DNA from: Megasphaera coli
Lineage (GTDB): Bacteria > Bacillota > Negativicutes > Veillonellales > Megasphaeraceae
Length of the DNA: 64,000 bases
Direction of reading: 5' to 3'
Assembly: GCF_900095855.1 (NCBI RefSeq)
Contig: NZ_FMIY01000002.1
Location: 859,322-923,321 of the forward strand
Shown: positions 30,359 to 40,945 of the stretch, one piece after another
How positions within the stretch are numbered: position 1 is the stretch's first letter
Layout of the letters: each line of letters opens with the position of its first letter
Position numbers and translations under genes: made by a program
Notes under the pieces: model-generated
Seen by the model: the letters and a program-made list of their open reading frames with translations, nothing else
Databases searched by the model: none
Told to the model about the DNA's origin: nothing

Positions 30359-31540
30359 CTACAACGCATTGTATTTCAAAATCATAGCAGCCGCCTGGGC
30401 GGCCATCCCCTCTTCTCTGCCGACGAAGCCCAGGTCTTCCGACGTCGTCGCCTTGACGGACACATCGGCCGTGCCGATTTCCAGAGCCGAGGCTATATTT
30501 TGTATCATTTCGGGAACATAAGGCCTGATCTTCGGCCGCTGGGCCAGAAGTGTCGCATCCACGTTGATAATGCGGCAACCGTTCTCAACGAGAAGCTGCT
30601 TCACTTTACGGAGCAAATGCAGGCTGGAAATCCCCTTAAACGCCTTGTCCGTATCGGGAAAATACGTGCCTATATCCTTCAGGCCCGCCGCCCCCAGGAG
30701 AGCGTCCATGACGGCATGAGTGAGGACGTCCGCATCGGAATGACCGTCAAGCCCTTTCTCGAAGGGAATTGCCACGCCGCCCAAGACAAGGCGCCTGCCT
30801 TCTTTCAGGCGGTGGACGTCATAGCCGCTGCCGACACAGTACTTCGTAGGCCCGTTCAAGTAAAACTCCAGGACCGGAATATCGTCCGGCGTCGTCACCT
30901 TGCGGTTACGTTCGTCTCCTTTGAGAACGACGATATCTTCGCCGAGAGCCTCGACGAGGGCGGCATCATCCGTCGCCTCTATACCGTTGTCTTTGGCGTA
31001 TTTATATGCTGCCAGCAAGGTTTTTCGCCGAAAGATTTGGGGTGTCTGCACGGCGATAAGACGACTCCGCTCCAGTGTTTTCAGCTGCTCCGGCCCGTAG
31101 TGCTCCTCCGTCCCGCACAGCTTTACCGTGTCTTTGACGGGTACGGCGTAAATGGCGGCTACGGCCTTTTCCATGACGGCCGCGGCATTATCGTACCATT
31201 CCGGCCCCGCCCAGGGCCGCGAACCGTCGTGAACCATGACGACGTCACAGTCGCCTGCCGTCTCCATGAGGCCGTTATATACAGACTCGCCCCGCTCGGC
31301 ACCGCCTAAGGCGAACTTGACCGGCACGGCCGGGCGCAGAGAAAAGACGAGTTGCTCCGCCTCTCGCCGGTCCCGCTCCGAGATGACCAGGATTACTTCA
31401 TTTACCTTTCGCGCCGCGAAGACGCGGGACAGTGTGTGTTCCAATACGGGTTTACCGCAAAGAGGATAAAACAGCTTATTTCGTTCATAACCAAACCGCC
31501 GACCGGAGCCGGCGGCTACGACAATAACGGATACGTTCAA
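30359..31540 (-). CDS. ispDF: Bifunctional IspD/IspF isoprenoid enzyme
   Basis: A fusion of two steps of the MEP isoprenoid pathway: MEP cytidylyltransferase (IspD) and MECDP synthase (IspF). The N-terminal half (about 1-228) has VSVIVVAAGSGRRFG and VMVHDGSRPW. The C-terminal half (about 235-393) has SGYDVHRLKEGRRLVLGG, GHSDADVLTHAVMDALLGAA and TSEDLGFVGREEG. The start is set at the TTG at 31540, with AGGTGG five bases upstream, rather than a TTG further up inside the preceding gene. The missing IspE step makes the fusion non-sequential, as in other IspDF proteins. Confidence 0.94.
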   Translation of the reverse strand: MNVSVIVVAAGSGRRFGYERNKLFYPLCGKPVLEHTLSRVFAARKVNEVILVISERDRREAEQLVFSLRPAVPVKFALGGAERGESVYNGLMETAGDCDVVMVHDGSRPWAGPEWYDNAAAVMEKAVAAIYAVPVKDTVKLCGTEEHYGPEQLKTLERSRLIAVQTPQIFRRKTLLAAYKYAKDNGIEATDDAALVEALGEDIVVLKGDERNRKVTTPDDIPVLEFYLNGPTKYCVGSGYDVHRLKEGRRLVLGGVAIPFEKGLDGHSDADVLTHAVMDALLGAAGLKDIGTYFPDTDKAFKGISSLHLLRKVKQLLVENGCRIINVDATLLAQRPKIRPYVPEMIQNIASALEIGTADVSVKATTSEDLGFVGREEGMAAQAAAMILKYNAL

Positions 31541-31556
31541 AAAATCCACCTGTTTC

Positions 31557-32741
31557 TTATTCAGATACTTTAACAAAAATCATACGCCCTGCAGAGGTCT
31601 GCAAGACCGACGTAACCGTGACGGGGATATTCATACCGATGTACTTTTCCCCGTTTTCCACGACGATCATCGTGCCGTCGTCAAGATAGGCGACGCCCTG
31701 ATTTTCTTCTTTACCGGCCTTGACGACGAGAACGTTCATCTCTTCGCCGGGAACGCGCGCCGGCTTCAACGCATTGGCCAGATCGTTGATATTGAGAACA
31801 ACGACACCCTGAAGTTCCGCAACCTTATTAAGATTATAATCGTTTGTAATGACCTTGGCATTGAGCTTTTTGCCCAAGCGCACCAGTTTGGAATCAACGC
31901 CCTGAACATCGTCGAAATCGTCGTTAATGACATCAACCTGCACATGCCGGTCCTCCTGCATGCGCTTTAAAATATCAAGTCCGCGCCGGCCCTTCGTACG
32001 CTTCAGCAGATCTGCCGAATCGGCAATCAGCTGTAATTCTTCAAGGACGAAGACAGGGACGAGCAAGGGGCCTTCCAAAAATCCCGTCGCGCACAGTTCC
32101 GCAATACGTCCGTCAATAATCGTACTCGTGTCGAGGAGTTTTCCGGCCCCCGCACCGCCCGGTTTTGTATTCTTCTCTTTACTCTGCTTACTTACGCGCA
32201 AGGTGGAAATAAGAGTGGAAACTTCCGTCTTTTTGCGAACGGCGATACTCATACCGGCGTAACCGAAGACGAGGTTGAATACAATCGGCCCGTACGCGCC
32301 GATAATGGGAAGCCGGGAAAAAGCAAATCCGATTAAATTAGCAATAATAAGTCCAATAAGCAACCCTACAGTCCCGGCGAGCAGATCCTGTCCGGACAAA
32401 CCGCTCAAGCTGTATTCAATGCGATGAATAGCCGCCCAAATGAGGCGCAAAATAAAATGTGACAAAATGTACCCAGTCACGGCACCGATAACCGCACCGA
32501 CCGCGTAAGCGATAACCGTGAGCACGGTCAGGCCGAGTATACCGCCCGACGCGGCTTCACCTTCCAGTTCGGCACTGAAGAAAGGTGTCGTCAAAAGTTC
32601 GTCCGCAAGAACGACAAAAATAAGGGCCACGACGAGGACGATGAGCCATCGCATGAGATTATCGGCCAGCTTGTGCACCTTGGCACGGCGCGCTTTTCCT
32701 GCATCACGTTCATTGGCGGGCGACATGTTTTGTGTTGTCAT
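31557..32741 (-). CDS. Membrane PIN/TRAM-domain protein (YacL-like)
   Basis: A 394-residue protein with four probable membrane segments in the first 150 residues (LIVLVVALIFVVLADELL, ILGLTVLTVIAYAVGAVIG, LLAGTVGLLIGLIIANLIGFA, AYGPIVFNLVFGYAGMSIA). A PIN nuclease domain follows (LLDTSTIIDGRIAELCATGFL, DINDLANALK) and a C-terminal TRAM RNA-binding domain. This matches Bacillus YacL, whose cellular role is unclear. It is the first gene of the unit with ispDF and gltX, with an extended -10 element (TGATATAAT, 32780-32788) upstream and GGGAGGTGA as ribosome site. Confidence 0.92.
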   Translation of the reverse strand: MTTQNMSPANERDAGKARRAKVHKLADNLMRWLIVLVVALIFVVLADELLTTPFFSAELEGEAASGGILGLTVLTVIAYAVGAVIGAVTGYILSHFILRLIWAAIHRIEYSLSGLSGQDLLAGTVGLLIGLIIANLIGFAFSRLPIIGAYGPIVFNLVFGYAGMSIAVRKKTEVSTLISTLRVSKQSKEKNTKPGGAGAGKLLDTSTIIDGRIAELCATGFLEGPLLVPVFVLEELQLIADSADLLKRTKGRRGLDILKRMQEDRHVQVDVINDDFDDVQGVDSKLVRLGKKLNAKVITNDYNLNKVAELQGVVVLNINDLANALKPARVPGEEMNVLVVKAGKEENQGVAYLDDGTMIVVENGEKYIGMNIPVTVTSVLQTSAGRMIFVKVSE

Positions 32742-32822: not shown

Positions 32823-34193
32823 TCACTCCTCTTTAAACGCCGCACGAAGCGCTTCGCCGAGATTCTTGACGTAAACAACGTCATACGTATGCCTGCCCAT
32901 GTCGTCCTTATTGCCCCGCGGCAGAATAAAACGTGTAAAGCCGAGCTTGGCCGCTTCCTGTACACGCCGCCTGACATGGGGCACGCGGCGGATGTCACCT
33001 GTAAGACCGATTTCACCCATAAGGGCCGTGTTTTTGTCCACGACGACATCGCGCAGGGACGAGACGATCGCCAAGGCTACGGGCAAATCGGCGGCAGGCT
33101 CATTCAGCTTCAATCCGCCCGCAATATTGATATACACGTCCTGTGTCGACAAATTCAGGCCGACACGTTTTTCAAGAACCGCCAGAAGGAGGATGAGGCG
33201 GTTATAGTCCATACCGACAACAGTACGCCGCGGCACGGCAAAAACGGAACGCGACGTGAGGGCCTGCACTTCTCCCAGGAGCGGACGCAAACCGTCCATG
33301 ACGGCGGCCACGGCGGATCCGGCTTCGCCTGCGGACCGTTCCGCCAGGAGCAGAGCCGACGGATTTAAAAGTTCTTTGAGGCCCGTTTCGGACATGGTAA
33401 AAATACCGGCTTCGTTCGTCGAGCCGAAACGGTTTTTCATGCTGCGCAGAATACGGAACTGATACTGCCGCTCCCCTTCCAAATAGAGAACGACGTCGAC
33501 GAGGTGTTCCATGAGGCGCGGACCGGCGATGGCGCCGTCTTTCGTAACATGGCCGATGACGACGACAGGCATACCCGTCGACTTGGCAAAGTTCATGAGT
33601 TTGTTCGTTCCTTCGCGAATCTGCCCCTGACTGCCCGGCGCGCCGTCACAGTCGCTCGTATACATAGTCTGGATAGAATCGACAATGAGAAGGCCCGCTT
33701 TTTCATTTTCCGCCGTCTTCAAGACCGCATCCAAATACGTGTCGGCCTGAATAAGAAGTTCCGGTGCGTCTATACCCAGGCGCCGGGCACGCAGCTTAAT
33801 CTGTCCAGCCGACTCTTCCCCTGTCGCGTAAAGGACCGTTCCGGCCGCCCCGCAAACGGCTGAAGCCAGCTGCAGAACAAGCGTCGACTTGCCGATGCCC
33901 GGATCGCCGCTCAAGAGAATGAGAGCACCCGGCACGATACCGCCGCCCAAGACGGCGTCGAGCTCGCCGATACCCGTGACGAGGCGGGCCGTCTCTTCCG
34001 ATTTAATATCCTTAAGCGCTGCCGGCGATTTCCCGGCCCGGCGCACGACTGAACGGGCCGCGACCGGGGCGGGCGGCGCCTCTATTTCTTCGTGCAGTGT
34101 ATTCCACTGACCGCACTGCGGACAGCACCCCAGCCATTTGGCGGAAACGCTGCCGCACTCCGTGCAGACATAGCGGCTTTTTATCTTTGCCAT
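32823..34193 (-). CDS. radA: DNA repair protein RadA (Sms)
   Basis: A RecA-like ATPase that promotes branch migration in recombination. The 456-residue product has the N-terminal zinc finger CTECGSVSAKWLGCCPQCGQW, Walker A GDPGIGKST, the RadA-specific KNRFG motif (MKNRFGSTNEAGIFTM) and a C-terminal Lon-protease-like domain (TSRSVFAVPRRTVVGMDYNRLILLLAVLEKR). It follows clpC by 9 bp, the normal Firmicutes order. Confidence 0.96.
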   Translation of the reverse strand: MAKIKSRYVCTECGSVSAKWLGCCPQCGQWNTLHEEIEAPPAPVAARSVVRRAGKSPAALKDIKSEETARLVTGIGELDAVLGGGIVPGALILLSGDPGIGKSTLVLQLASAVCGAAGTVLYATGEESAGQIKLRARRLGIDAPELLIQADTYLDAVLKTAENEKAGLLIVDSIQTMYTSDCDGAPGSQGQIREGTNKLMNFAKSTGMPVVVIGHVTKDGAIAGPRLMEHLVDVVLYLEGERQYQFRILRSMKNRFGSTNEAGIFTMSETGLKELLNPSALLLAERSAGEAGSAVAAVMDGLRPLLGEVQALTSRSVFAVPRRTVVGMDYNRLILLLAVLEKRVGLNLSTQDVYINIAGGLKLNEPAADLPVALAIVSSLRDVVVDKNTALMGEIGLTGDIRRVPHVRRRVQEAAKLGFTRFILPRGNKDDMGRHTYDVVYVKNLGEALRAAFKEE

Positions 34194-34202
34194 CCCTTCT
34201 CC

Positions 34203-36671
34203 TTATGTGACATCAATAACGGTAAAGGTCAAATTCTTGCCGTCCGTGCTGTCGGCGCGGACAGTCTGTCCTTCCGTCAGGCTGCCGGCAAGAAGCAGCT
34301 CGGAAACGGGATCTTCCACCTGCTTCTGAACGGCTCTGCGCAGGGGCCTCGCACCGTAAGCGAAGTCCGTGCCCTCGCCGACGAGAACGTCCACGGCGGC
34401 AGCCGTCTTTTCAAAGTGAACGCCCTTTTCTTCCAGCCGCTTTTCAAGGTCCGTCAACATGATGCCCACAATATGCCGCAAGTCCGCCTTTTCCAAAGGC
34501 TTGAAGACGAGCATTTCATCCAGCCGATTAATAAACTCGGGTTTAAAGAAGCGCCGCACGTCGGCGAGGATTTCCTTTTTCGCCCCTTCAAAAGCGGCCA
34601 TGCCTGCCGGTTCTCTGTCGGTGTCGAAACCCATGGTCGGCGTTTCCGGCCGCAAGTGAGACGCGCCGAGGTTACTCGTCATGATGATGACCGTATTTCG
34701 AAAATCCACGCTGCGGCCCTTGGAGTCGGTCAGTTTGCCGTCGTCCAGGACCTGCAGGAGAAGGTTGAAGAAATCGCCGCTCGCCTTTTCCACTTCGTCA
34801 AAAAGGATGACGCTGTACGGCTTCTCCCGCACCTTATCCGTAAGTTCGCCCCCTTCTTCATGGCCCACATAGCCGGGAGGAGAACCGATGAGACGGGAAA
34901 CATTGTGGCGCTCCATGAACTCGCTCATGTCGATACGAATAAGGGCGTCGTCGCTGCCGAAGAGCTGCTTTGCCAGCGCGCGGGCCAACTCGGTCTTGCC
35001 TACGCCGCTCGGTCCGAGGAAGAGGAAGGATCCGACAGGGCGGCGTTCATCTTTAAGACCAGCCCGGGCGCGGCGTATAGCCTTGGAAACGGCAGTAACC
35101 GCTTCGTCCTGGCTGATGACGCGTTTGTGCAGGTCTTCTTCCAAATGCAGCAGCCGATGCGCTTCCGTTTCCGTAAGCTGCCGCACGGGTACCCCCGTCC
35201 AGACGGACACGACATCGGCTACGTCGGCCGCGGTAACAACAGGCGCCGTTTCTTCTGCCGCCTTTTTGCCGCCGCGCAGATGCCGGAGCTTTTCTTCAAG
35301 AATCTTGCACTTGTCGCGCAGGGCTGCGCAGGCTTCAAAATCTTCCGCCGCGAGAAGCGCTTTCTTCTCTTTCGCAAGCTGTGCCAATTCCCGTTCCAAA
35401 CTCTTTATTTCCGTTGTCGGCGCAGTGGCGCAAATGCGTACCTTCGCGGCCGCTTCGTCAATGACGTCTATCGCCTTGTCGGGTAAAAAGCGGTCCGAAA
35501 TATACCGTGCCGACAGGAATACGGCTTCGGCAACGGCCTCGTCTTCGAGACGGACGTGATGAAATTCTTCGTACCGCTCCTTCAGGCCCGTTAAAATCTG
35601 TACGGCTTCTTCCCGCGACGGTTCTTCCACGCGAATAGGCTGAAACCGCCGTGCCAAGGCCGAATCCTTTTCAAGGTATTTCTTGTATTCTTCCGTCGTC
35701 GTCGCACCGATACATTGTAATTCGCCGCGCGCCAACGCGGGCTTTAATATATCGGCCGCATCCATCGCCCCGTCTGCCGAACCTGCGCCGATGAGCTGGT
35801 GCAGTTCATCAATAAAAAGGATGACGGAACGGTCGTTTTTCACCGTATCTACAAGACGTTTAATACGTTCTTCAAACTCGCCGCGGAACTTCGTACCCGC
35901 AACAAGGCTTGCCAAATTAAGAGAAAAGACCTTTTTGTCCGCCAAAATATAGGGCACTTCGCCATCGACAATTCGCTGCGCCAATCCTTCGGCAATGGCC
36001 GTCTTACCGACACCGGGCTGCCCCAGGAGAACAGGATTGTTCTTTGTGCGGCGGCAAAGGATTTGAATAACCCGTTCAATTTCTTTAGCCCTGCCGATGA
36101 CCGGATCGATTTTTCCCTTGCGTGCTTCTTCATTTAAATCCCTGCCGTAAGCGGACAAGCCGTCGTCCTCAAGGGGTTCTTCATTAGCCGCCGTTTCCGC
36201 CCCGTCATCTGGTCCTTCATCATGTCGCGACGAAGAGGACATGCCCTGCTCGAAGGCGTAAATCCGTTCGGCAATTTCCTGCGGCGCAATATCCATGCTT
36301 TCCAAAATTTGCGCCGCCATGCTGTCATCTTTCTGCAAGAGGCCGAGCAATATATGCTCCGTCCCTACATAGGACTGTTTGAGGCGTTTCGATTCTTCAA
36401 CGGCGAACTCCATAGCCTCTTTCATGCCCGTCGTCAGGACGAGATGTGCGTTCGGCGTCATCCCGAGACCGACAATATTCTCTACGGCACGAGTCACGTT
36501 TGTGGGCGTCAGGCCCATATCTCTGAGCATCTGCCCGGCCGTCCCTTCTTCGTTGAGCACGAGGCCCAAGAGTATATGTTCCGTCCCCACGTAATTATGA
36601 GCCAACCGCTGTGCCGCATTGCGCGCATAGCGGAGAACTTTTTTAGAATCATCAGTAAACCGATTATACAT
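34203..36671 (-). CDS. clpC: ATP-dependent Clp protease ATPase subunit ClpC
   Basis: A Hsp100 unfoldase that feeds proteins to ClpP. The order is: ClpN repeats (residues 1-140), AAA1 with GQPGVGKTA, a middle UVR-like coiled coil ([21 protein letters not shown]), then AAA2 with [14 protein letters not shown]. Each ClpN repeat keeps GTEHILLG, whose Glu binds phosphoarginine in Bacillus ClpC. The ATG at 36671 is chosen since AAGGAGG is 10 bases upstream; an ATG at 36677 is too close. The product has 822 residues. It sits in the ctsR-mcsA-mcsB-clpC-radA operon. Confidence 0.96.
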
Positions 36672-36703
36672 GCACATCCCCTCCTTACAGGTTATATACA
36701 TTC

Positions 36704-37759
36704 TTACAAAAGGTATTCGCGAAGTGTATGCTGCAATATACGCGCCCGCACTTTTTCTTCCGTGTCGAGAACGCCTCCGCCGGCAACATGAATATAGGCG
36801 GGCTCACTGACGCTCATCAACGCCGCATAAGCATGAGTCCTCAACGAAAGATATCCCAGCGCAGCGGCCAGCTGCACGTCGCTTAGGAGCGACAGAGCCT
36901 CTTCATAATCGACGAGCCAGGCCTGTGAAAGAAGGCCGTAACTGCGCATTAAGCGATCGTGCAGCGTATCGGGCTCGTTTTTCAGTAAAAGTGTCCGACA
37001 CTCCCGTTCTTCTTTTACAACATGCGTGACAATTTCTTCCAAACGACTGATAATATCTTTTTCCGTTACGCCGAGCATAACTTGATTGCTGATTTGAAAA
37101 ATATTGCCTACATACATATTGCGGCTGCTGTACAGACCGCCGAAGACAAAGCCGAATTTTGTAATATCCTGCGTAATCCGCCGCAATCGATTCATGGCGG
37201 CCAGAGCCGGCAAGTGAAGCGTTACACCGGTGGAAAAGCCGGTCCCCGTCAGGGACGGAACGGACGTAAGGTAACCGAAGTCTTCATGAAAAGCAAAATC
37301 CAGTTTTTCTTCCAACGCATCATCTATACGAAAAGCATCATAAGCAGCCTTATGAAGAGCAAATCCGTTTCCGACCGTTCTGATGACAAGATGATCCGCC
37401 CCGTTCACCATAAGTGCTGCCGCACCGTCCTCGCGAATCGCCAGTCCTCTGTTTTCAGGCTCATCCACAAAGGCACCTGAAATAAACCGCTTTGCCGCGG
37501 CAAGCTCCCTTTCCCTCCTCGTTAAATTTTCAAGAGCCGTATATTCAAAGCCGCAACGGCAGGCTGCATCAAGCTGCGGCAAGGACTTACTTACCTCTGC
37601 CGTGACGGCCTGCAGCTCTTCTGCAGACGCGCGGGCAGGAAAAAGATGCTGCTTGATGTTGCGCGCCAAGCGCACGCGGCTGTCCAGAACTATATCACCG
37701 TCCATGGTCGGATCATGCTGCCACGGCAGGAGAACGGCCCCGACCATTTCCTTAATCAC
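36704..37759 (-). CDS. mcsB: McsB-like protein, probably a catalytically dead arginine kinase
   Basis: McsB normally phosphorylates protein arginines and marks substrates for ClpCP. This 351-residue protein keeps the fold: DSRVRLARN (27-35), FGYLTSVP, LHLPAL, VGNIFQISNQ and the MRSYGLL helix. Every catalytic position I can align to Bacillus McsB is changed. NEEDH reads NGADH (119-123), the SCP cysteine is Val167, the RAS arginine is Ser176, Arg207 is Gly207, and the GEGSE loop with Glu212 reads SSRNM (211-215). The C-terminal RDxxRA site reads EEKVRA. The DNA at these points is unambiguous and the frame is intact. The start is GTG at 37759 (GGAGG 6 bases upstream), overlapping mcsA by 8 bp. 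Confidence 0.9.
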   Translation of the reverse strand: MIKEMVGAVLLPWQHDPTMDGDIVLDSRVRLARNIKQHLFPARASAEELQAVTAEVSKSLPQLDAACRCGFEYTALENLTRRERELAAAKRFISGAFVDEPENRGLAIREDGAAALMVNGADHLVIRTVGNGFALHKAAYDAFRIDDALEEKLDFAFHEDFGYLTSVPSLTGTGFSTGVTLHLPALAAMNRLRRITQDITKFGFVFGGLYSSRNMYVGNIFQISNQVMLGVTEKDIISRLEEIVTHVVKEERECRTLLLKNEPDTLHDRLMRSYGLLSQAWLVDYEEALSLLSDVQLAAALGYLSLRTHAYAALMSVSEPAYIHVAGGGVLDTEEKVRARILQHTLREYLL

Positions 37760-38276
37760 GGCTGCCCTCCCCGTCCTTTTGAAGACGCTGCCGTTCAAGC
37801 ACCTTAATTTCATCGCGCACCTTAGCGGCTTCTTCATACGCTTCCCGGTCCACGAGCTTTTGCAAATGCTGCTTCAACCGCTTAATGTGCGTAGCCGTAC
37901 GAAAAACGCCGCTGCCCCGTTCGGGTACCTTGCCGACATGACGGGCATGACCGTGAATACGGCGCATGAGCGGCTCAATTTCTTCGGCAAAGGCATCATA
38001 GCAGAAGGGACAGCCGAACCTGCCGTCACGGGCAAACTCGCTGTACGTCATACCGCAACGGCTGCACTGCGGTTCATCTATAGGTTCGCCGGTGTAACCG
38101 GGATAAATCATTTTACGAAAAAAATCGTTATCCATATTGTTCATTTCACGTTCTCCGCCCAAAGCCCCCTGCTTATTGGCGCAGACTGCGCAAAGATGCA
38201 GTTCCGTACGTTTACCGTTTTCTATCTTTGTAATGTGTACGACCGCATCCTCGCGTTTACACATTTGACATAACAT
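37752..38276 (-). CDS. mcsA: McsA, zinc-finger partner of McsB and CtsR
   Basis: McsA activates McsB and helps control CtsR in Firmicutes. The 174-residue product has two zinc-binding CxxC pairs at the N-terminus (CQMC at 3-6, CAVC), a second set in CSRCGMTYSEFARDGRFGCPFC, and a C-terminal UVR domain (LVDREAYEEAAKVRDEIKVLE). All cysteines are present, so McsA appears intact although its partner looks inactive. It lies 13 bp after ctsR with AAAGGAG as ribosome site. Confidence 0.93.
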   Translation of the reverse strand: MLCQMCKREDAVVHITKIENGKRTELHLCAVCANKQGALGGEREMNNMDNDFFRKMIYPGYTGEPIDEPQCSRCGMTYSEFARDGRFGCPFCYDAFAEEIEPLMRRIHGHARHVGKVPERGSGVFRTATHIKRLKQHLQKLVDREAYEEAAKVRDEIKVLERQRLQKDGEGSRD

Positions 38277-38289
38277 AAGACTTCTCCTT

Positions 38290-38757
38290 TCACATATTCG
38301 GGCGCAGGTTGAGACTCTTTAAAATGCGCGTAATGACGGCAATGCGCTTCGGCTCATCGTCGATTTCCGCAAAGAGCGCACGAAACGTATGGTGCAGCAT
38401 AATGGCTTCCCCGTTGGTAACCGCCTTGTGTTTCAACAAACTGAAAAGGAGACCGTCCAAATCGTCCAGAGAGATACTGACGGCAGGACGTCGCTCGGAC
38501 AGCATGACGGGCATGCGGTCCGCTTTCTTCTTGCGGGCAATCCGCACGATGCGCACAAAGCCGCCGGAACCGCGGCGCGATTCGACAATAAACCCCTTGT
38601 CATTGGAAAAACGCGTGCTCAGGACATAGCTGATTTGTGACGGTGCGCAATCAAGTTCGTCCGCCAATTCGTTGCGGCGCAAGACGATATTTTCTTCCTC
38701 TTCCGCAAGGAGTTTGTGAAGAATAAATTTTTCTATTTTATCAGCGAGAATGCTCAT
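38290..38757 (-). CDS. ctsR: Transcriptional repressor CtsR
   Basis: Represses class III heat-shock genes (clp operons). The 155-residue product has an N-terminal winged helix with LADELDCAPSQISYVLSTRFS and the glycine-rich wing ESRRGSGGFVRIVRI that senses heat in Bacillus CtsR. It is the first gene of its own operon, preceded by a promoter and TCAAA-type repeats that are candidate autoregulatory operators. Confidence 0.95.
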   Translation of the reverse strand: MSILADKIEKFILHKLLAEEEENIVLRRNELADELDCAPSQISYVLSTRFSNDKGFIVESRRGSGGFVRIVRIARKKKADRMPVMLSERRPAVSISLDDLDGLLFSLLKHKAVTNGEAIMLHHTFRALFAEIDDEPKRIAVITRILKSLNLRPNM

Positions 38758-38789
38758 AGTATCACCTCATGAAAAGATAAAAATGACGG

Positions 38790-38849
38790 GTCAAAACATG
38801 AAATTTTGACTTTATGTCTTATTATATTAGACTTTTTGACTTTTTGCAA
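38790..38849 (-). promoter_or_regulatory. ctsR promoter with candidate CtsR operators
   Basis: On the minus strand TTGCAA (38849-38844), a 17-bp spacer and TATAAT (38826-38821). AGTCAAA heptads occur in the spacer and again downstream of the -10, and GTCAAAA/TTTTGAC form an inverted repeat at 38790-38796 and 38804-38810. The known CtsR box is a direct repeat of RGTCAAA spaced by 3; the spacing here is not canonical, so the operator call is tentative. Confidence 0.6.
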
Positions 38850-40014: not shown

Positions 40015-40926
40015 TTATACCGATTTTCTTAACTTTCCGTAGGGCTGCAAGTATGCTTCAGCTACGGTACCTGCAACGCTCCTCGCCTCATCCGATATAC
40101 CGTCCTTCAAACAGATATGCTCCTTCAAAATGTGCGCAATTTCATGAAAGAGGCTGAAGCGAAATTTATCTAAATCATCTGTGCCGCTCCTTGTAATCCC
40201 TACTATAATTTTATCCGTATTGCGATCGTAAAAGGTTATGCCGTGTAAAAAAGAGTTCTTCAAGGCCGGCAAAAGCACCAGCGCTATACCACAAGACCTG
40301 AGCATATCCGACAACGGTTCCTCAAAATCTCCCGTTTCGCCACTCGTTATATTGCGTATTTCCTCTATTTTACCTGCCAAATTATTGGCGGAAAAAGACT
40401 TGACTTCTATATTTTTTGCCTTAATTTTTGCATATTGTGCCAAAGCCCGCATAATATACGCATTTTTTTTCGTCACGGGCAAATTTCGACATACAGAAGG
40501 CATCAATCCCTTATTGTTAAGAAGCTTTAAATCACTGACCTCAAAAAATTTACATAAATTAATGTATTTTTCCAATCGGTTATCAGTGTTCGGAACCATA
40601 CCCCATTGAGCCATTTCACTATATGGATACTTACTTACCAGCTTCTTTTGCTCAGCCCATTCATTTTCCCGCTTTACTCGAATTAGCTTCTCCTGATAAA
40701 CAGCTTCCAGCTTATTCCAAAATCCGGCCGGTATCCCTAAGACCAGCTCCAGCCTTCCGGCCATGTCAGGTGTTAAATGAACATCCCCGTTAACAAGCTT
40801 GCTGATATGTTTTTCAGACATTCCCATCCGCGCGGCAAATTCCTTTTGTGTCATGCCGCGGTCTTTAAGCTGTTCCCTAATCATAGCACCCGGTGGTGTA
40901 GCAATATAAGTTTTACTCTCCAACAT
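40015..40926 (-). CDS. HigA-like antitoxin with ImmA/IrrE peptidase domain
   Basis: A two-domain protein of 303 residues. An N-terminal XRE helix-turn-helix (MTQKEFAARMGMSEKHISKL, about 25-45) begins like HigA antitoxins (PPGAMIREQLKDRGMTQ). A C-terminal zinc peptidase domain has HEIAH at about 262-266. The C-terminus ends about 35 residues after the zinc motif and lacks the usual EADxFA segment, so the domain may be truncated. The ATG at 40926 has AAGGGAG 8 bases upstream; a GTG at 40935 is too close. It follows the toxin gene by about 20 bp and probably represses it by binding the operators upstream. Confidence 0.85.
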   Translation of the reverse strand: MLESKTYIATPPGAMIREQLKDRGMTQKEFAARMGMSEKHISKLVNGDVHLTPDMAGRLELVLGIPAGFWNKLEAVYQEKLIRVKRENEWAEQKKLVSKYPYSEMAQWGMVPNTDNRLEKYINLCKFFEVSDLKLLNNKGLMPSVCRNLPVTKKNAYIMRALAQYAKIKAKNIEVKSFSANNLAGKIEEIRNITSGETGDFEEPLSDMLRSCGIALVLLPALKNSFLHGITFYDRNTDKIIVGITRSGTDDLDKFRFSLFHEIAHILKEHICLKDGISDEARSVAGTVAEAYLQPYGKLRKSV

Positions 40927-40945
40927 AATTTTCACTCCCTTTGCT

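Follow-up and report, generated by a model that had tools for sequence, protein, structure and literature searches.

The stretch of DNA analysed here, 64,000 nucleotides of Megasphaera coli contig NZ_FMIY01000002.1 (the window), carries on its minus strand an intact ctsR-mcsA-mcsB-clpC-radA operon. The class III heat-shock repressor CtsR, with a conserved helix-turn-helix (HTH) and RRGSGG wing, is encoded at 38290..38757, behind a promoter (38789..38849) that contains TTGCAA (38844-38849), TATAAT (38821-38826), CtsR half-site-like AGTCAAA sequences at 38835-38841 and 38805-38811, and an inverted TTTGACC at 38789-38795. The next gene, mcsA (37752..38276), encodes the activator and partner of McsB and has a UVR motif and both zinc-finger cysteine quartets (8 of 8 cysteines). 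Its stop is overlapped by the GTG start, at 37759, of mcsB (36704..37759), which has the ribosome site GGGGAGGG upstream and encodes a McsB homologue without catalytic residues, a putative pseudokinase, in a frame uninterrupted over 351 aa. The AAA+ unfoldase gene clpC (34203..36701) follows, with both N-terminal GTEH motifs present, and then radA (32823..34193), identified from its translation without a family search and standing in the usual clpC-radA order. The intact mcsB frame, the otherwise normal operon, the McsA cysteines and the two GTEH motifs of ClpC that had been described in an earlier note on this DNA were all found as stated.

McsB is normally a stress-response enzyme that marks damaged proteins through arginine phosphorylation. 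The best PDB hits of McsB in a phmmer search were full-length matches to the B. subtilis (6tv6) and G. stearothermophilus (6fh1) proteins, with E ~1e-57; the NCBIfam arginine-kinase models match it at 292 bits, under every cut-off (385 or more). Adjoining the ctsR operon, a minus-strand gene (40015-40935) encodes a protein of 306 aa that has an HTH at its N-terminus and, at its C-terminus, an apparent metallopeptidase motif (HEIAH), of the HigA/ImmA type. Downstream of the clpC-radA block lies an apparent IspD-IspF fusion (30359-31576, minus strand), after which come gltX and cysS, all read from translation only.

Loss of catalytic residues from McsB

When the window protein is aligned with Bacillus McsB, with the cysteine of SCP set as residue 167, NEEDH is replaced by NGADH, SCP by SVP, RAS by STG, Arg207 by Gly and GEGSE by SSRNM, and the RDxxRA phosphoarginine allosteric motif reads EEKVRA, in which RA is kept and RD is gone. 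These are the replacements named in the earlier note, which had proposed such an alignment with studied McsB proteins as a check; the alignment upheld each of them and added one that was absent from its list, HIRIQ to HLVIR, by which Arg125 becomes Val. From the aligned family motifs and from established knowledge, Arg125, Arg176 and Arg207 are the counterparts of the phosphate-binding arginines of phosphagen kinases, and the protein has also lost the acidic guanidino-pocket residues (NEEDH, GEGSE). The two SRxR arginines, Arg28 and Arg30, are retained, as is Asp122-His123. Across 107 canonical McsB proteins the positions replaced here vary little or not at all, and canonical invariants have been lost more often from the pocket (10/26) than elsewhere (6/40, p 0.04). 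A concentration of loss in the phosphotransferase domain (15/55) relative to the dimer domain (1/11) was not significant (p 0.27) and is not claimed.

In the window's own family (f1, two genera), 15 of 16 relatives yielded a McsB protein, including 11/11 genomes more than 90% complete. None of the 16 family proteins, window included, keeps Cys167, Arg125, Arg176 or Arg207, and residue 167 is Ser in 13 of them; a survey of relatives had been suggested in the earlier note. Since all family relatives share losses in McsB, a sequencing error or a one-off quirk is ruled out. NEEDH is kept by some relatives, and several keep Glu120 together with the GER lid motif; because of this, and because a Cys-to-Ser change does not inactivate every phosphagen kinase, a low level of remaining activity cannot be excluded for some members of the family. 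Judged by its sequence, the window protein is a genuine member of the McsB family without its catalytic residues, and its catalytic death, for which there is no activity assay, is well supported.

In the other families of the same order that were read, McsB is canonical in every sequence from f3 and f4 and degenerate in f2, by a different pattern: Cys167 is replaced by Ser (9/9), Glu120 is lost (9/9) and His182 is replaced by Phe (9/9), with Arg176 retained in 4/9 and Arg207 in 5/9. The differing residue patterns therefore suggest that f1 and f2 took partly separate routes of degeneration, possibly with a common first step from Cys to Ser. Two f2 genomes (G020 and G021) lack mcsB altogether. 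Two otherwise complete f4 genomes, G046 and G053, are also without McsB, and at best match ClpC partially (open frames of 719 and 621 aa). Erosion is graded in f14, a further family of the class (loci L068-L084, L087, L174-L177 and L183-L185), in that the whole core is kept in some members, GEGSE is altered in most, Cys167 is lost in 9/25, and one genus carries His at position 207. Isolated degenerate McsB proteins were seen in unrelated families at L206 (G129) and L205 (G615), with a partly degenerate one at L201 (G633); the core residues are retained in the other low-scoring McsB proteins sampled across the phylum. In a McsB protein tree, f2, f14, f3 and f4 each form one clade, and f1 is supported as a single group at only 79/32, because of the long branch of one member, G005.

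Phosphoarginine phosphatase and alternative kinases

The signature of the phosphoarginine eraser YwlE, CTGNTCR, was searched as degenerate DNA, with a backward control pattern that gave no matches. It was found once each in 31/32 f3/f4 genomes and in 0/29 f1/f2 genomes, counts in which relatives are not independent. The sole exception among f4 genomes is G046, which is also one of the two without McsB; the other, G053, keeps the signature. That YwlE is present in f1 and f2 and was merely missed by the motif was rejected, as PF01451 matches with readable P-loops in these families gave only the CHGNICRS or the ArsC type, never CTGNTCRS (two loci had no readable loop), and no PF01451 match exists in the window's own genome. 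With catalytic residues and YwlE both lost, the family is inferred, from sequence alone and without an activity assay, to have lost the arginine phosphorylation write-and-erase circuit, McsB itself remaining under purifying selection.

The signature was likewise missing from all sampled f14 genomes, for which no PF01451 or P-loop check was made, and was not found in G129, G615 or G633. Since several f14 members whose catalytic core is intact (G120, G204, G212) lack it, it is suggested that in f14 the loss of the eraser preceded full catalytic decay. Outside the order, some genomes with canonical McsB are also without the signature (f29, f35, f43, f83), which limits its value as a marker there. 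The possibility raised in the earlier note that another arginine kinase exists gained no support, as PF00217 matches only McsB in the window genome, which is ~90% complete.

Selection, predicted fold and partners of McsB

No inside stop occurs in any f1 or f2 mcsB copy, and dN/dS is 0.03-0.07 in three close f1 pairs (dS is saturated in the fourth), 0.10-0.18 in f2 pairs and 0.06-0.08 in canonical pairs. With frames unbroken and selection not relaxed in most close pairs, mcsB does not behave as a pseudogene. The predicted structure of the window protein (pLDDT 94.9, pTM 0.91) matches the solved structures of B. subtilis and Geobacillus McsB with TM 0.90-0.92 on superposition, so that the modelling proposed in the earlier note returned an intact McsB fold. 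All f1 proteins compared (15/15) are identical in GYLT of the McsA-contact loop and in the dimer-domain residues D268, R272, G275, L277 and E287.

Gene order from ctsR to clpC is kept in the f1 and f2 loci read, and McsA retains both zinc fingers, in each case except in G005; in the window both McsA-binding features, the contact loop and an intact McsA finger, are present. AGTCAAA half-sites and TATAAT upstream of ctsR are conserved in readable f1 loci; these separate half-sites were seen by promoter reading, and the strict CtsR box GGTCAAANNNRGTCAAA was matched only by chance. The GTEH motifs of ClpC were considered as a sign of phosphoarginine reading and set aside as weak, unspecific evidence of phosphoarginine docking, because most relatives retain at least one motif in ClpC, as does the ClpC of an f2 genome that has no McsB. 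In G005 (L033, 1445-4797), a relative of the same genus as the window and the single f1 species lacking clpC, only ClpB-like matches remain, and radA, read from its translation, comes directly after mcsB; its McsA is without the first (N-terminal) zinc finger and its McsB is hyperdivergent, the longest branch in the tree. This co-occurrence hints, in one lineage only, that the retained role of McsB depends on ClpC.

Proposed role and relation to known systems

The family-wide residue loss, the co-loss of YwlE, purifying selection, and conservation of the operon and of the interaction surfaces together bear out the view, put forward in the earlier note, that this McsB is a pseudokinase; its further reading of the protein as a non-catalytic adaptor or CtsR/ClpC regulator remains an inference and is the best available. 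The form of it that we consider fairly probable, with function inferred and no assay performed, is an McsA-gated, non-catalytic regulator of CtsR and ClpC. The protein would be a scaffold in the form of a dimer, bound by the C-terminal zinc finger of McsA at the conserved F-x-x-x-x-G-Y-L-T loop and kept in check by ClpC; on proteotoxic or thiol stress it would be released and bind CtsR, removing it from AGTCAAA operators and/or passing it to ClpCP, without a phosphoarginine mark. In B. subtilis, according to a review (PMC5506225), oxidised McsA frees McsB, which takes CtsR off DNA while incapable of kinase activity, and this kinase-independent branch would have become the sole one. The same review states that the ClpC-adaptor function of McsB needs kinase activity, which counts against the proposed mechanism.

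An alternative, which we regard as unlikely though not negligible, is that the pocket has been re-purposed, f1 McsB binding another ligand or catalysing another reaction through newly fixed residues. Several former catalytic columns do carry new conserved residues in f1 (Gly213 to Arg and Ser26 to Asp, each 14/15; Ser178 to Gly and Met180 to Thr, each 13/15; Cys167 to Ser, 12/15), and conservation within f1 at the lost columns (0.64) is lower than the average over the protein (0.70), but not significantly so (p 0.26); however, position 125 varies among Cys, Val and Ile, 176 among Ile, Thr, Ser and Leu, 207 among Cys, Ser, Gly and Met, and the Glu121 position among Asp, Thr, Glu and Ala, variation unlike that of one new active site and greatest in the window's own subclade. 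It is also possible, but improbable in our judgement, that McsB has been retained not for CtsR control but as a scaffold with a chaperone-like or ClpC-inhibiting function. The dimer domain is the best-kept part, McsB has diverged extremely in the lineage that lost clpC, and in B. subtilis ClpC and McsB are described as binding each other, with ClpC inhibiting McsB (PMC5506225); against this, CtsR, its HTH wing and the operator-like sites are kept equally, which makes control of CtsR no less likely.

An arginine kinase that is still active, divergent and served by displaced catalytic residues would agree with the intact predicted fold, the kept Arg28, Arg30 and Asp122-His123, and the NEEDH and GER of some relatives, but it is very hard to reconcile with the loss from every family member of a cysteine and three arginines invariant in the canonical set, and with the lack of a YwlE counterpart in an order in which canonical McsB almost always comes with the eraser. 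That mcsB is a dying gene, with translational coupling to its operon neighbours as the sole reason for its retention, has next to nothing to recommend it: two f2 genomes have lost it and the G005 copy is hyperdivergent, but the copies have no inside stops, dN/dS is 0.03-0.10 in most close pairs, recovery extends to every relative more than 90% complete, and the structure model is of very high confidence. Beyond the McsA-gated regulator itself, we suggest only tentatively, and rather doubt that it can yet be maintained, that the writer-eraser pair has been repeatedly dismantled in several Bacillota lineages, by loss of YwlE and erosion of the McsB site, and that McsB, gated by McsA and independent of ATP, persists as a stress regulator; in f1 its site may also have been refitted for another ligand.

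The kinase and ClpC-adaptor activities of B. subtilis McsB have been described as hard to dissect from each other (PMC5506225). A clade in which McsB is kept and catalysis removed would be a natural separation-of-function mutant for these two activities, making testable a long-standing question, the role of McsB without phosphorylating anything. It also follows that, in this order and to some extent in f14, an annotated CtsR-McsA-McsB-ClpC operon is no proof of arginine phosphorylation; the partly eroded f14 sites offer a stepwise series for the study of how a kinase turns into a pseudokinase. No earlier report of McsB pseudokinases was found in the open-licence literature, subscription papers being mostly outside its scope, and novelty is unproven.

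Bacterial Ser/Thr pseudokinases share the concept of a kinase fold without catalysis (PMC12599244, a review in which the passages naming McsB are only items of its reference list), but the window McsB has a phosphagen-kinase-type fold, and a different residue is modified. The other half of the known circuit, the phosphoarginine phosphatase YwlE/PtpB, appears absent in f1 and f2, where only CHGNICRS tyrosine-phosphatase-like or ArsC-like proteins were seen. With the McsB kinases of B. subtilis, G. stearothermophilus and S. aureus (6tv6, 6fh1-6fh3, 8gqd) the window protein shares family, predicted fold (TM ~0.9), operon, McsA partner, McsA-contact loop and dimer domain; it differs in being without Cys167, Arg125, Arg176, Arg207, NEEDH, GEGSE and the RD of RDxxRA, and in that no YwlE was found in its genome. 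In S. aureus the McsB loop Y147-Y153 takes the C-terminal zinc finger of McsA and positions the catalytic cysteine (PMC12467219); f1 keeps the contact loop and the McsA finger, but has no catalytic cysteine for them to position.
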